Source: an uncultured Prevotellaceae bacterium
GTDB taxonomy: Bacteria > Bacteroidota > Bacteroidia > Bacteroidales > Bacteroidaceae
Assembly (NCBI GenBank): GCA_902763615.1
Contig: CACWSX010000026.1
Location: 1 to 50,383, forward strand
Direction: 5' to 3'
DNA length: 50,383 nt
Positions 11,820 to 45,580 of this stretch are shown here, one piece after another. A program made the position numbers and the translations under genes. Under the pieces are notes generated by a model. The model searched no databases. It was given only the letters and a program-made list of their open reading frames with translations, and was not told the DNA's origin. Numbering within the stretch: the first letter of the stretch is position 1; each line of letters begins with the position of its first letter.

Positions 11820-11935
11820 CTGACTAGGACTCAGACGGGACGGTTCTCAATGAGTCCTCGCTCATTCAGTCCCCTATGATTTGAAAGATGAGAATAGGAA
11901 ACGGGAGTCAGTCGGCTTCCGTGTTTTCGTCTGGT
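11820..11935 (+). repeat. Degenerate GGGACGGTTCT element plus hairpin repeat, copy 1
   Basis: GGGACGGTTCTCAATGAG (11837-11854) faces CTCATTCAGTCCCC (11861-11874), a decayed version of the palindrome found in tatD. It is followed by GATGAGAATAGGAAACGG (11887-11904) and a hairpin (GAAACGGGAG with CTTCCGTGTTTTC), the first of three copies of a hairpin repeat in this region. It sits right after the DUF4041 gene and may serve as its terminator. Confidence 0.65.
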
Positions 11936-13374: not shown

Positions 13375-13463
13375 TCTGTTCCCCGAAGATGAGAATAGAG
13401 AAACGGAAGTCAGCGGCTTCCGTTTCTTTTCGTCTAAAGCTGTCTCTCAGGCAGCACAGTTCG
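13366..13463 (+). repeat. ~100-bp direct repeat with hairpin, copy 3
   Basis: Near-identical to 12791-12894 (GGTCATTGATCTGTTCCCC ... GGCAGCACAGTTCG). The hairpin GAAACGGAAG (13400-13409) with CTTCCGTTTC (13417-13426) is followed by TTTT, making it a likely terminator. The repeat begins inside the last codons of the 38-aa gene. Confidence 0.8.
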
Positions 13464-13549
13464 AAACACCCGGGGACGGTTCTTTTTTGTTTGACTGATT
13501 CCGCTGACGGCGCAGCGGGTCAAACAGGAAGAACCGTCCCCGGGTGTTT
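13464..13549. repeat. GGGGACGGTTCT palindrome, 86 bp
   Basis: Arms of about 31 bases, 13464-13494 and 13519-13549, are near-perfect inverted repeats containing CGGGGACGGTTCTTTT and GTTTGAC. The centre also pairs (CCGCTG 13501-13506 with CAGCGG 13513-13518). It lies 12 bp from the stop of nagB and is one of five elements of this family in the window. It resembles REP sequences of the kind moved by IS200-like (RAYT) transposases; no such gene is in view. Confidence 0.85.
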
Positions 13550-13561
13550 GATTAGGATGCT

Positions 13562-14356
13562 TTATAGCAGCTGATCGCTTTCGATATCCTTGAAATACTT
13601 GTAGGTGCTGACCTTGAGCTCGTCGGCAGCATCCTCGTCGCTGACGATGATACCATGCTCATGCATCTGCAGGGCGCTGATGGTCCACATGTGGTTGACG
13701 GCTCCCTCGATGGCAGCCTGCAGGGCGCGGGCCTTGGCGTGGCCGTTGACGAGGATCATTACCTCGCGGGCAGCCATGACGGTACCTACACCAACGGTCA
13801 GGGCATGGGCGGGCACGTTCTCAGGATTGCCACCAAAGAAACGGCTGTTGGCAATACGGGTGTCGGTGGTGAGCGTCTTCATACGGGTCTTTGAACTCAG
13901 CGAAGAACCAGGCTCATTGAAGGCAATATGACCATCGGGGCCGATACCACCGATAAACAGGTCGATACCGCCTGCTTCCTGGATCATTTCCTCGTAATGG
14001 GCACACTCGGCCACGAGGTCGGGCGCATTGCCATTGAGGATGTGAATATTCTCCTTCGGACAGTCGATGTGGTCGAAAAGGTTACGGGCCATAAAGGCAT
14101 GATAGCTCTCGGGATGGGTCTCGGGCAGACCGACGTATTCGTCCATATTGAAAGTCAGCACGTTCTTGAAGGATACGCGTCCTTCGCGGCAGGCTGCTAC
14201 CAAGGCATTGTACATGCCTACGGGTGATGAACCGGTTGGCAAACCGAGGACGAACTTGTGATCCGGAGTCGGTTTGAACTCGTTGATACGCTTGATGACA
14301 TGCTCAGCAGCCCACTGAGACAACTTCTGGTAGTCTGATTGAATAATTACTCTCAT
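13562..14356 (-). CDS. nagB: Glucosamine-6-phosphate deaminase
   Basis: 264 aa, the usual length of NagB. It converts glucosamine 6-phosphate to fructose 6-phosphate and ammonia, the last step of amino-sugar catabolism. Visible family motifs are [16 protein letters not shown] (phosphate binding), [12 protein letters not shown] (catalytic Asp at about residue 71), [19 protein letters not shown] (catalytic His at about 142) and [21 protein letters not shown]. It is monocistronic: a TATTTTTG promoter element lies about 42 bp upstream, and a palindromic element sits just beyond its stop. It is divergent from hflX, sharing a 160-bp intergenic region. GC content is clearly higher than in the accessory genes to the left, marking the start of the core region. 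Confidence 0.95.
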
Positions 14357-25352: not shown

Positions 25353-25439
25353 TCAAACAGTAGGGGACGGTTCTTTTTTGTTTGACAGCGTATTCGCATG
25401 TTTGAGTCAAACAAAAAAGAACCGTCCCCTACTGTTTGA
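25353..25439. repeat. GGGGACGGTTCT palindrome with perfect 34-bp arms
   Basis: Arms 25353-25386 and 25406-25439 are exact reverse complements (34 bases, containing AGTAGGGGACGGTTCTTTTT and GTTTGAC), with a 19-base loop. The element fills the whole space between the stops of the convergent M6 and clpB genes: it starts 3 bp after one and ends 1 bp before the other. It would form a very strong hairpin in both transcripts and probably serves as terminator or mRNA 3' end. It is the best preserved copy of the family. Confidence 0.92.
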
Positions 25440-43103: not shown

Positions 43104-43763
43104 ATGAACAGGACGACCAATTTCCTGCTGGGCTTAGTCTTCGTACTGGCCTGTTTGTTTGTCGCGCTCGAATGGAACAGTGGCGACAGTGGCTGGCATT
43201 TCTTCGACATGGAAGACGACCTAGAGGCCGAGATCGAACTCTCGCCGTTGCACCGCGACGAAAACGAGGTGCCGATGATGAAACCCACTGAGGAAACGCC
43301 CCCCGAGGTGAAGTCACAGGAGGTGAACCCCGTTGAGGAGGATGTCGAGATTCCGCCTGAGGAGGTAGAACCGACCCCTGCCGAGTTGCAGGAACCTCCG
43401 AAACCTGAAGAGGAGAAATTACCCGAGGCCGTCGATATGTATGACGAGCCGGTTGATTTCAGGGTGGTTGAGGATCTGCCACAGTTCCCCGGTGGTGCTG
43501 TCGAGTTCATGAAGTGGCTCACCAAATACCTGCATTATCCGCCCTCTGCCCAGCAACGAAAGGTGCAAGGCAAGGTGGTGGCCCAGTTCATTGTCGAGAG
43601 AGACGGTTCTATCAGCGATCTGCAGGTCATCAAGAAACTCGATCCCTCGTGCGACCGTGAGGCACTGCGGGTATTACGTATGATGCCCAAGTGGAAAGCC
43701 GGGCTTATGGATGCCAAACCCTGCCGTACCCAAGTCTGCATCCCCATCGTTTTCAAATTGTAA
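43104..43763 (+). CDS. Energy transducer TonB family protein, 219 aa
   Basis: Start ATG 43104 (MNRTTNFLLGLVFVLACLFV), giving a single N-terminal membrane anchor. A Pro- and Glu-rich periplasmic spacer runs about residues 40-120 (for example TEETPPEVKSQEV, PPEEVEPTPAELQEPPKPEE). The TonB C-terminal domain runs about 135-219 (GGAVEFMKWLTKYLHYP, VQGKVVAQFIVERDGSISDL, MMPKWKAGLMD). It transmits the proton motive force to outer-membrane receptors. It is not adjacent to exbB/exbD, but those genes lie 2 kb downstream. Confidence 0.9.
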   Translation: MNRTTNFLLGLVFVLACLFVALEWNSGDSGWHFFDMEDDLEAEIELSPLHRDENEVPMMKPTEETPPEVKSQEVNPVEEDVEIPPEEVEPTPAELQEPPKPEEEKLPEAVDMYDEPVDFRVVEDLPQFPGGAVEFMKWLTKYLHYPPSAQQRKVQGKVVAQFIVERDGSISDLQVIKKLDPSCDREALRVLRMMPKWKAGLMDAKPCRTQVCIPIVFKL

Positions 43764-43793: not shown

Positions 43794-44768
43794 ATGTATA
43801 GCTCAGAAGAATTGCTCAACAAGGTGAACGAGGCCCTCGAGAACCTCGCCTACGACCGTCAGCCACACACGCTCTATGATCCCATCCGCTATGTTCTGTC
43901 GTTGGGAGGAAAACGTATCAGACCTGTCCTCATGCTCTTGGCTTACAACCTCTATCGTGAGGATCCCCTTCGCATCATGTCGCAGGCCATTGGTGTGGAG
44001 ACCTACCACAACTTCACGTTGCTTCATGATGACCTGATGGATAAAGCCGATATGCGTCGCGGCAATGAGACGGTTCATAAGAAGTGGAACGCCAATCAGG
44101 CCATCCTCTCGGGCGACACTATGCTCTTGCAGGCTTTCGACCGGGTAGGCGACTGTGATGCCGACAAGATGAAGGATGTGATGGCTGTCTTTATCCTGAC
44201 CACTTACGAGGTGGGTGAGGGACAGCAGTTCGATGTGGAGTTTGAGACCCGCGACGATGTCACCGAGGCAGAGTATATTGAGATGATCCGTTTGAAGACG
44301 AGTGTCCTGCTTGCTTGTGCCCTGAAGATTGGAGGTATCATGGCAGGTGCCTCGGCCGACGACCTGGACAACCTCTACAAGACGGGTGAGCAGATCGGAC
44401 TGGCCTTTCAGTTGCAGGATGACCTTCTTGATGTCTATGGCGACCCTCAGGTGTTCGGTAAGAACATCGGTGGCGACATCGTCTCGAACAAGAAGACTTA
44501 TATGCTTATCAATGCCCTCAACCGTGCCAATCCCGCCCAGCATGCGAAACTCGTCGATTTGCTTCAGACTTGGCCATTCGACCGTTCTGAGAAAATTGAG
44601 GCGGTCACGGAACTCTATAATGCAATTGGTATTCGAGAGCTCTGCGAGGAGCGCATTAACTATTATTTCGAGCAGGGATGCCAGTATCTCGACCGTGTGA
44701 ATGTGCCTGAGGCTCGGAAGACCATCCTCCGCCAGTATATAGCTCAAATGGTAAACCGTCAGTCTTGA
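43794..44768 (+). CDS. Polyprenyl diphosphate synthase
   Basis: 324 aa, trans-isoprenyl diphosphate synthase. The first Asp-rich motif is LLHDDLMDKADMRRGNETVH, the second LQDDLLDVYGD; GGKRIRPVLMLLAYNL holds the substrate Lys-Arg-x-x-Arg. Residues before the first motif (ETYHNFT) suggest a chain longer than GPP, so geranylgeranyl or a longer polyprenyl product for quinones or undecaprenyl is possible. The short isoform cannot be told from sequence alone. The stop TGA overlaps the tatD start (TGATG). Confidence 0.9.
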   Translation: MYSSEELLNKVNEALENLAYDRQPHTLYDPIRYVLSLGGKRIRPVLMLLAYNLYREDPLRIMSQAIGVETYHNFTLLHDDLMDKADMRRGNETVHKKWNANQAILSGDTMLLQAFDRVGDCDADKMKDVMAVFILTTYEVGEGQQFDVEFETRDDVTEAEYIEMIRLKTSVLLACALKIGGIMAGASADDLDNLYKTGEQIGLAFQLQDDLLDVYGDPQVFGKNIGGDIVSNKKTYMLINALNRANPAQHAKLVDLLQTWPFDRSEKIEAVTELYNAIGIRELCEERINYYFEQGCQYLDRVNVPEARKTILRQYIAQMVNRQS

Positions 44769-45580
44769 TGCTTTCATTCATCGATACCCATTGTCACCTC
44801 GATGGTGAGGAGTTTGCCGCCGACCGCGAAGAAGTGGTGGCCCGTGCCCGTGCTGCCGGTGTCTCCAAAATCCTCGTTCCGGCCATCGACTTCAAATCCT
44901 GTCACTCTGTCCTTGATGTCTGCCGTCAATACCCTGATTATTGCTATCCCATGCTCGGCCTTCATCCTGAAGAGGTCCGGGCAGACTGGCGCCAGCAACT
45001 AGACTCACTGGGGACGGTTCTGAGTGAGTCGTTGCAGACAAAAACTCATTCAGAACCGTCCCCAGTGGGTCCAATCGCCATAGGTGAAGTAGGACTTGAT
45101 TATTACTGGAGCCGTGAGTTCGAGCAGGAACAGTTAGAGGCCTTCGAAGAACAGGTACGCTGGTCGGTGGAGACGCGCCTCCCCCTGATGATTCATTGTC
45201 GCAAGGCACAGAACGAGATGGTGGCCATCCTGAGGAAATACGCCGATGACCTGCCTGGTGGTGTGTTCCATTGCTTCACCGGCAATGAGATTGAAGCCCG
45301 CGAACTGCTCCAGTTCAATCGGTTTGTACTCGGTATCGGCGGTGTGCTCACCTTCAAGAAATCCAATCTGCCGCAAACTATGGCCGTTATTCCCCTAAAC
45401 CGCATTGTCCTCGAGACCGATGCCCCTTATATGGCCCCTGTGCCCCATCGAGGCCAGCGCAATGAGCCTGCCTTTGTAAGCGAAGTGTTGCGGAAACTCG
45501 CTGAGGTTTATGGTGTCAGCGAGGAGGAAGTAGCCCGCCAGACAACGGCCAACGCCTTTGAGGTGTTTAAAAAAATATAA
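44768..45580 (+). CDS. TatD family DNase, with an inserted repeat
   Basis: ATG 44768 (MLSFIDTHCHLDGEEFAADR) is preferred; an in-frame TTG one codon up is also possible. 270 aa. Metal ligands of the TIM-barrel hydrolase are visible: His7/His9 in DTHCHLD, Glu in IAIGEVGLDYYW, His in PLMIHCRKA and VFHCFTGN, Asp in LETDAPYMAP. Members are 3'-5' DNases. Anomaly: between LGLHPEEVRADWRQQLD and GPIAIGEVGLD about 23 residues (LGTVLSESLQTKTHSEPSPV) come from a palindromic repeat (45003-45070). The enzyme core is complete on both sides, so the insertion is probably tolerated in a loop. Located next to the polyprenyl synthase gene and tRNA-Ser. Confidence 0.9.
   Translation: MLSFIDTHCHLDGEEFAADREEVVARARAAGVSKILVPAIDFKSCHSVLDVCRQYPDYCYPMLGLHPEEVRADWRQQLDSLGTVLSESLQTKTHSEPSPVGPIAIGEVGLDYYWSREFEQEQLEAFEEQVRWSVETRLPLMIHCRKAQNEMVAILRKYADDLPGGVFHCFTGNEIEARELLQFNRFVLGIGGVLTFKKSNLPQTMAVIPLNRIVLETDAPYMAPVPHRGQRNEPAFVSEVLRKLAEVYGVSEEEVARQTTANAFEVFKKI
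45003..45070. repeat. GGGGACGGTTCT palindrome inside tatD
   Basis: Arms 45003-45028 and 45045-45070 (26 bases, two mismatches) contain ACTGGGGACGGTTCTGAGTG and its complement, around a 16-base loop. The reading frame passes through without a stop. Confidence 0.92.

Follow-up and report, generated by a model that had tools for sequence, protein, structure and literature searches.

How does a long palindrome come to lie in frame within a conserved enzyme gene, and where did it come from? The question is raised by tatD in the window, the whole stretch of 50,383 nucleotides that we analysed from an uncultured Prevotellaceae bacterium, for which an earlier, sequence-only reading had claimed an in-frame insertion of a REP-like palindrome in the TatD of a Bacteroidales member. 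The claim is supported by the sequence and by relatives. We suggest, with a probability of roughly four in five, that the insert belongs to a family of REP doublets (REPINs) that subclass 2.6 RAYT transposases spread in Prevotella, a reading based on comparison of mostly draft, metagenome-type assemblies. The gene and the parts of the element are as follows.

44768-45580, plus strand: tatD (270 aa), the host gene; open reading frame with Pfam TatD_DNase match, E 1.9e-74
45002-45071, no strand: REP doublet (REPIN-like palindrome), an inverted repeat coding TatD residues 79-101 in frame
45002-45030, plus strand: left REP unit, with stem GACTCACT, core GGGGACGGTTCT (45010-45021) and stem GAGTGAGTC, from sequence and core matches
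45031-45043, no strand: hairpin centre, 13 nt, poorly conserved against the TatD carriers L064 and L322
45044-45071, minus strand: right REP unit, inverted, with stem ACTCATTC, core AGAACCGTCCCC (45052-45063) and stem AGTGGGTC, from sequence and core matches

The palindrome is near-perfect and 70 nt long, two inverted stem-core-stem units with 40-nt arms that are 83% complementary, and its hairpin reaches -57.5 kcal/mol, versus -19.4 +/- 3.2 for 200 shuffles (z -11.8). It encodes residues 79-101, DSLGTVLSESLQTKTHSEPSPVG, plus the first base of codon 102, and falls between the HPEE and IGEVGLD motifs of TatD. The start of tatD overlaps the stop of an upstream polyprenyl-synthetase ORF (43794-44768); from there the frame is open throughout, and the TatD_DNase match runs from residue 5 to 268 across the element (best E among PDB TatD relatives, 4.6e-43). 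Hence the palindrome is in frame and free of stops over its 23 codons, as had been claimed, and the opposite strand does encode a similar string, LGTVLNEFLSATTHSEPSPV. The catalytic residues on both sides are also intact, as H10, E107, H143, H168 and D218, which we take to be the metal-site residues of TatD, are invariant in an alignment of 46 sequences (chosen from 81; H8 precedes the start of the other rows). The statement that about 23 residues are added needs qualification: 23 are encoded by the element, but the net gain is 13-14, given an HP-to-IGE spacing of 37 in this TatD and 23-24 in its shortest relatives. The only Rfam hits in 44700-45400 were two animal microRNA models, which we dismissed as chance hairpin matches far below their gathering scores (42.1/100 and 23.1/76 bits).

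An AlphaFold2 model of TatD (46 sequences; mean pLDDT 90.8, pTM 0.89) has helix 74-90 continuing into the insert, a block at 91-100 with a mean pLDDT of 56, and a strand at 104-109 that carries E107. The insert is thus predicted to lengthen the helix before the E107 strand and to form a flexible, low-confidence helix-to-strand loop. In TIM-barrel topology such loops lie opposite the active site, and by that topology the insert would be on the side away from it. TatD is expected to stay active, with an insert that is near neutral for the host. From motif inspection only, the insertion sites in BirA, RsmD and PrmA, described below, also appear to be helix-strand junctions.

Relatives of TatD place the insert in a hypervariable loop. 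Across 103 TatD proteins, from 23 genus loci (the window's own included) and 80 related loci, the GLHP-to-IGE spacing ranges from 23 to 61 residues. The core is carried by two of them, the window's own and L064 (Prevotella sp. RGIG8115), and a later doublet search revealed a third carrier, L322, in genome G128. Both elements align without gaps to the window's, at the same TatD codon. This argues against an assembly artefact, an objection that the sequence-only reading had itself named. The genome to which the window belongs is in 117 contigs and 87% complete, and the doublet genomes are mostly drafts of tens to hundreds of contigs; even so, an error of assembly or binning is hardly credible when the TatD insert recurs at one codon in three genomes and domains continue in frame across many inserts.

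The comparison of carriers bears on a second alternative, namely that the hairpin itself has a function for which it is retained, such as control of expression by an mRNA hairpin or RAYT binding, its coding capacity being a by-product. Relative to the window's element, L064 and L322 each keep 53/57 arm and 24/24 core positions, against 526/717 (L064) and 597/717 (L322) in the flanks, while the centre diverges (3/13 and 8/13 identical, respectively). Such retention would fit a selected hairpin, yet the hairpin occupies different genes in different species, and relatives without it are common for TatD, BirA, RsmD and PrmA alike, so we consider this explanation unlikely.

A TatD tree built without the loop (104 proteins) requires two changes rather than one to account for the three carriers; two insertions, loss or replacement in sisters, or gene exchange would each be possible. 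We favor an old insertion that would have been replaced in sisters, because the carriers share the codon position. The precise gap that had been predicted for relatives was not found among them: because the loop is hypervariable and holds other repeats in other species, relatives carry other loop contents. Tandem arrays with a period of 7 or 14 (run of at least 14) occupy 26 of 102 distinct TatD loops but 0 of 2040 control windows in the same genes, and a hand-made pattern finds GGAGAGGG/GGGTGAGG-type palindromes in 12 of 103. Near-identical orthologues (L070, L072, L077-L079) have different loop repeats, which is why we think that the loop changes quickly and might be phase-variable; L069, L071 and L085 are further examples of repeat loops among L036-L133. 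A separate palindrome family, of the CTCCCTCTCC...GGAGAGGG...GGTGAGG type and seemingly translated, was seen in the TatD loop of L073, L074, L076, L094, L111, L116, L117 and L123, and also in the RsmD loop of L257.

The TatD element is not alone. The 12-mer core occurs eight times in the window with at most one mismatch, versus 0.16 expected, and the intergenic copies are these.

11836-11870, plus strand: decayed half-copy, intergenic, CGGGACGGTTCT with CTCA/TGAG stems, from its core match
13462-13551, no strand: doublet with the same core and the TGTTTGA stem family, intergenic, just past the 3' end of the minus-strand ORF 13562-14356
25353-25439, no strand: doublet with the same core and the TGTTTGA stem family, intergenic, between two convergent ORFs

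The TatD element had been equated with the window's intergenic element. The core is indeed common to both, but the stem of the copies at 13472 and 25363 is another one (TGTTTGA), which makes the intergenic doublets sister families of the TatD element. A one-mismatch copy at 43367 on the minus strand, partnerless and inside another ORF, was taken as chance. Elsewhere in the window, an 11-nt tandem array, GAGTTCAATTA, extends over 8.8 copies at 779-887.

The genome as a whole holds 31 exact cores in 19 clusters, and 0 of the reversed control. A search of the genome for other coding copies, proposed in the sequence-only reading, was rewarded with in-frame copies in BirA, RsmD, RsmF, PrmA and a BT4734-like protein (host gene names are from Pfam and PDB relatives). 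A further doublet forms the C-terminus of Fmt, DacB has a half copy close to its N-terminus, and 11 clusters are outside those genes (the placement of the C7 cluster is uncertain). Among the 12 clusters with two exact cores, seven are coding, Fmt included, and five are intergenic, all five of the long-spaced TGTTTGA family. Pfam models cross the insert in TatD, RsmF and PrmA, while the BT4734-like protein has a match (BT4734-like N-terminal domain) on the upstream side only. Against PDB relatives, the PrmA insert corresponds to a 16-residue gap in 1ufk and the RsmF insert lies partly in a 9-residue gap of 3m4x; for RsmD and BirA, the insert is where the alignment breaks or begins. The PrmA insert is absent from 29 genus PrmA relatives, one of which (L286) has another longer loop. 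In BirA, doublets are found at one site in four genomes among 33 rows, namely the own genome, RGIG9705 (L169), RGIG8115 (L168) and G056 (L348/L226), and these belong to two stem families read in different frames (GTVL... and GDGS...). For RsmD, L151 shows a half copy at the site used in the own genome, and L256, L257 and L258 have other repeat-like loops.

The same pattern extends through the genus. Doublets with exact cores and a centre of 8-38 nt, a definition that leaves the long-spaced TGTTTGA doublets outside, occur in 21 of 299 genomes of the genus, one of them the window's own, and in 0 of 294 from the rest of the order; the reversed control matched no listed genome. We fetched 51 doublets from 20 other genomes, G056 contributing 7 of its 9 and G106 7 of its 8; G260 appears to be the same genome as that of L065 (RGIG9705), with identical coordinates. 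Forty-six of the 51 lie wholly inside ORFs of at least 150 aa, compared with 1518 of 1803 random 50-nt windows (84%) from the same loci. The element therefore does not avoid genes, and is placed inside them about as often as random windows are. Four of the remaining doublets look intergenic (L316, L325, L344 and L346), and the fifth, L356, is in a short frame that to the eye resembles part of a PrmC-type gene and has no Pfam match.

Doublets lie in frame in many conserved genes of the genus. We scanned one ORF for each of 44 of the 46 coding doublets (L322 and L363 were left out), and 38 of these match a Pfam family at E <= 0.001, L351 and L352 being under the curated cut-off; the other six (L326, L327, L329, L340, L350 and L365) may not be genes. 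In 18 of the 44, Pfam models either span the element (L324, L328, L330, L337, L339, L342, L343, L353, L355 and L358) or match on both sides of it (L318, L323, L332, L336, L341, L354, L359 and L361). Hosts include a HemW-like protein, a P-type ATPase, a pseudouridine synthase, DsbD, PnuC, RsmF, CobU, CobT, an ABC transporter and GH92.

Several individual loci deserve mention. CobT was struck at the same residue (221) in two genomes, L315 and L358, by different stem families; the L315 copy goes out of frame at its doublet, which includes two Ns. On contig G115:C2, identical doublets (L356 and L357, at 273931 and 275837) are 1.9 kb apart. The second is inside a PrmC-like methyltransferase ORF, the short frame of the first resembles the N-terminal part of that ORF, and a lipoprotein-like ORF lies between them on the opposite strand. 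A rearrangement at the REP copies, or else a faulty assembly, is perhaps the cause. In three genomes (L147, L326 and L350) a GATC-type doublet precedes one common signal-peptide-like region, and in two of them an ATG is inside the doublet on the same strand; the doublet might there supply the start codon.

Are the doublets inside genes translated? In the frame that is used, 41 of 41 listed coding doublets contain no stop, with a mean of 1.7 of three same-strand frames open, but the corresponding probability (2e-11) is biased, as ORFs were chosen for being open, and is not a proof. We replaced it by a separate-frame test, in which the coding frame was judged for each flank; 27 of the 51 doublets are flanked on either side by at least 100 open codons, and the two flanking frames coincide in 21 of these 27 (p = 3e-6 for a null of one third). 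The six disagreements are L315, L326, L327, L337, L344 and L350, and the test is crude, because L337 disagrees despite a single Pfam model that spans its element. All three core frames are used, GDGS in 27, GTVL in 7 and GRF in 7 of the 41 (three from the own genome). The core-to-core length of the GATC-stem family is 58 in 14 of 16 coding copies, 55 in one and 61 in one, and the TTTTGTNACA family falls into two length classes, 50/56 and 49/52, that enter in different phases. We assessed the periodicity of total length visually, using core spacing and arm lengths; automatic arm lengths do not show it, because chance pairing extends the arms and mismatches shorten them. Taken together, frame agreement, frame usage and length classes point to translation.

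It could be argued that the segment is instead removed or skipped at the RNA level, by bypassing or splicing, leaving a protein without the insert. Bypassing elements use strong mRNA hairpins, and the -57 kcal/mol hairpin in the tatD mRNA resembles their structures. A skipped insert would need neither an open frame nor agreement between flanking frames, so both the stop-free frames, with the bias just stated, and the independent agreement count against this idea, which we regard as very unlikely.

If the TatD insert is a REP doublet, which transposase could have moved it? Each half of a doublet shares the layout of hairpins adjacent to RAYTs: a variable stem, the GGGGACGGTTCT core and a returning stem. 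The single Y1_Tnp match of the own genome is a RAYT that carries NHVH and YIHQNP and is flanked on both sides by hairpins with the core GGGGTCAGGATAC, not GGGGACGGTTCT; the RAYT in the genome of L064 goes with the core GGGGACAG. In the genus, Y1_Tnp matches occur in 88 of 150 genomes. Of the 20 long-type loci fetched, 5 (L205, L206, L207, L208 and L214) have the exact GGGGACGGTTCT core at most 110 nt from the RAYT frame, with inverted cores on both sides in L205, L206 and L208, and a unit with this core stands on one side in L207, L214 and L380. The other 15 lack an exact core nearby, many having variant cores, and L211 has a GGGGTCGGTTCT pair. Loci L175-L204, which are of the other Y1_Tnp type and mostly encode short proteins (about 140-220 aa), served as a negative control, and none of these 30 has the core. 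None of the genus RAYT loci examined has the TatD-type stem (GACTCACT/AGTGAGTC). On contig C38 of G056, a TGTAACAG-core-TTTTGTTACA doublet whose second core has decayed by one base lies 7 nt after the RAYT, and the TGTAACAG...TTTTGTTACA family also occurs inside the BirA, MntP-like and DUF3109 genes of that genome.

The association holds across genomes as well. Among the matches listed, a long RAYT (a frame of 250-315 aa, E <= 1e-6) is found in 9 of 12 doublet genomes versus 20 of 138 others (p = 2e-5), counted by hand with the 150 genomes taken from locus numbering. Any Y1_Tnp match is found in 13 of 18 doublet genomes and absent from five (G207, G259, G260, G316 and G322), two of which are 93% complete. 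Hairpins that flank RAYTs in L218, L219, L223, L384 and others have the core variants GGGGCCAGGCCC, GGGGACAGTCCCC, GGGGACAGGTTT and GGGGACAGGTACC; further variants are GGGGACAGG, GGGGCCAGGCC and the GGGGTCAGGATAC of the own genome. The occurrence of several core variants beside RAYTs suggests that core and transposase co-vary across Prevotella. The NH[LIV]H...YIHQNP motif is present in 20 of 21 loci, L144 included, with no match in L210. By the motifs given in PMC6006769, the long-type RAYTs of the genus are assignable to subclass 2.6.

According to that source, subclass 2.6 RAYTs are Bertels group 5 and mostly from Bacteroidetes, with NH[LIV]H and YIH[QN]NP motifs, and 'atypical secondary structures' flank the gene and have copies elsewhere in the genome (PMC6006769). 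Our family is alike in its motifs and in having atypical flanking structures with dispersed copies, and differs in its coding location; the terms 'intragenic', 'within genes' and 'Prevotella' are absent from the main text of that paper. In REPINs and the REP-RAYT system, as portrayed in two studies, inverted REP doublets form one hairpin and RAYTs are flanked by inverted REPs of the same family (PMC3116915, PMC2817692). Here, too, two inverted units form one hairpin, and there are RAYTs in the genus with GGGGACGGTTCT units on both sides (L205, L206 and L208), whereas the only RAYT found in the own genome has a different core beside it. In P. fluorescens SBW25, 14 of 1,067 REP 16-mers overlap genes (PMC3116915), in contrast to 46 of 51 Prevotella doublets inside ORFs; extragenic placement is a usual, not a mechanistic, feature. 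REPs usually exceed 100 copies (PMC2817692); the Prevotella unit is dispersed too, but has fewer copies (31 exact cores in 19 clusters). By inspection only, a conserved GT[AG]G foot is absent from the listed flanks. We think that the family is set apart from classical REPs by an atypical core, by the lack of a GT[AG]G foot and, most of all, by its coding location.

Coding palindromes as such have precedents. In Rickettsia (Alphaproteobacteria), RPEs are palindromic repeats that lie in frame in many unrelated proteins. The likeness to our doublets is that both are in-frame coding palindromes in unrelated proteins, set side by side by description, not by sequence. The sequence-only reading had cited RPEs as the precedent; this holds, but the precedent is wider, as GTAG and CGTC REPs and their dimers were found inside ORFs of several species, where more than half encode 20-30 aa of known proteins (PMC3733652). 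Most GTAG and CGTC REPs are nevertheless intergenic, each family bears its GTAG or CGTC tag at one end, no transposase is associated with CGTC REPs, and RPE-4 and RPE-6 belong to the CGTC repeats (PMC3733652). The tag is there unpaired at the end, whereas here, by inspection, CGTC is within the core, between two stems, and our family is RAYT-associated. Because intragenic REPs and Rickettsia RPEs came before, the kind is already known; a RAYT-linked, predominantly coding family appears to be new within the open-access literature searched.

Thus, a REP doublet spread by a subclass 2.6 RAYT would account for the TatD insert as follows. The RAYT would cut the hairpin and move it as single-stranded DNA, copies would land in genes about as often as elsewhere, and those retained would be the ones that keep the frame, lack stops and fall in tolerant surface loops, to be translated as about 20-30 foreign residues. 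Translation, mobility and function of the doublets are what we infer here, while their layout and position are observed. It would be tempting to go further and regard Prevotella subclass 2.6 REPINs as a protein-coding class of mobile elements, whose lengths in multiples of three (by reckoning) and stop-poor cores make genes habitable, which reuse helix-to-strand loops (TatD, BirA, RsmD, RsmF and CobT), whose different stem families and frames reach the same site across species, and which provide raw material for new protein segments. We offer this extension tentatively and rate it at somewhat below even odds.

By definition REPs are extragenic, yet housekeeping enzymes of Prevotella carry a RAYT-linked REP family in frame. 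It offers a candidate substrate for subclass 2.6 RAYTs, about which little is known. Annotators of Prevotella proteins should be wary of strings like GDGS...EPSP or GTVL...RTVP, which are likely transposon-derived. Prevotella proteins thus seem to carry stretches from a transposable element, and the origin of new protein segments from mobile DNA becomes testable within one genus, with many natural pairs with and without the insert.
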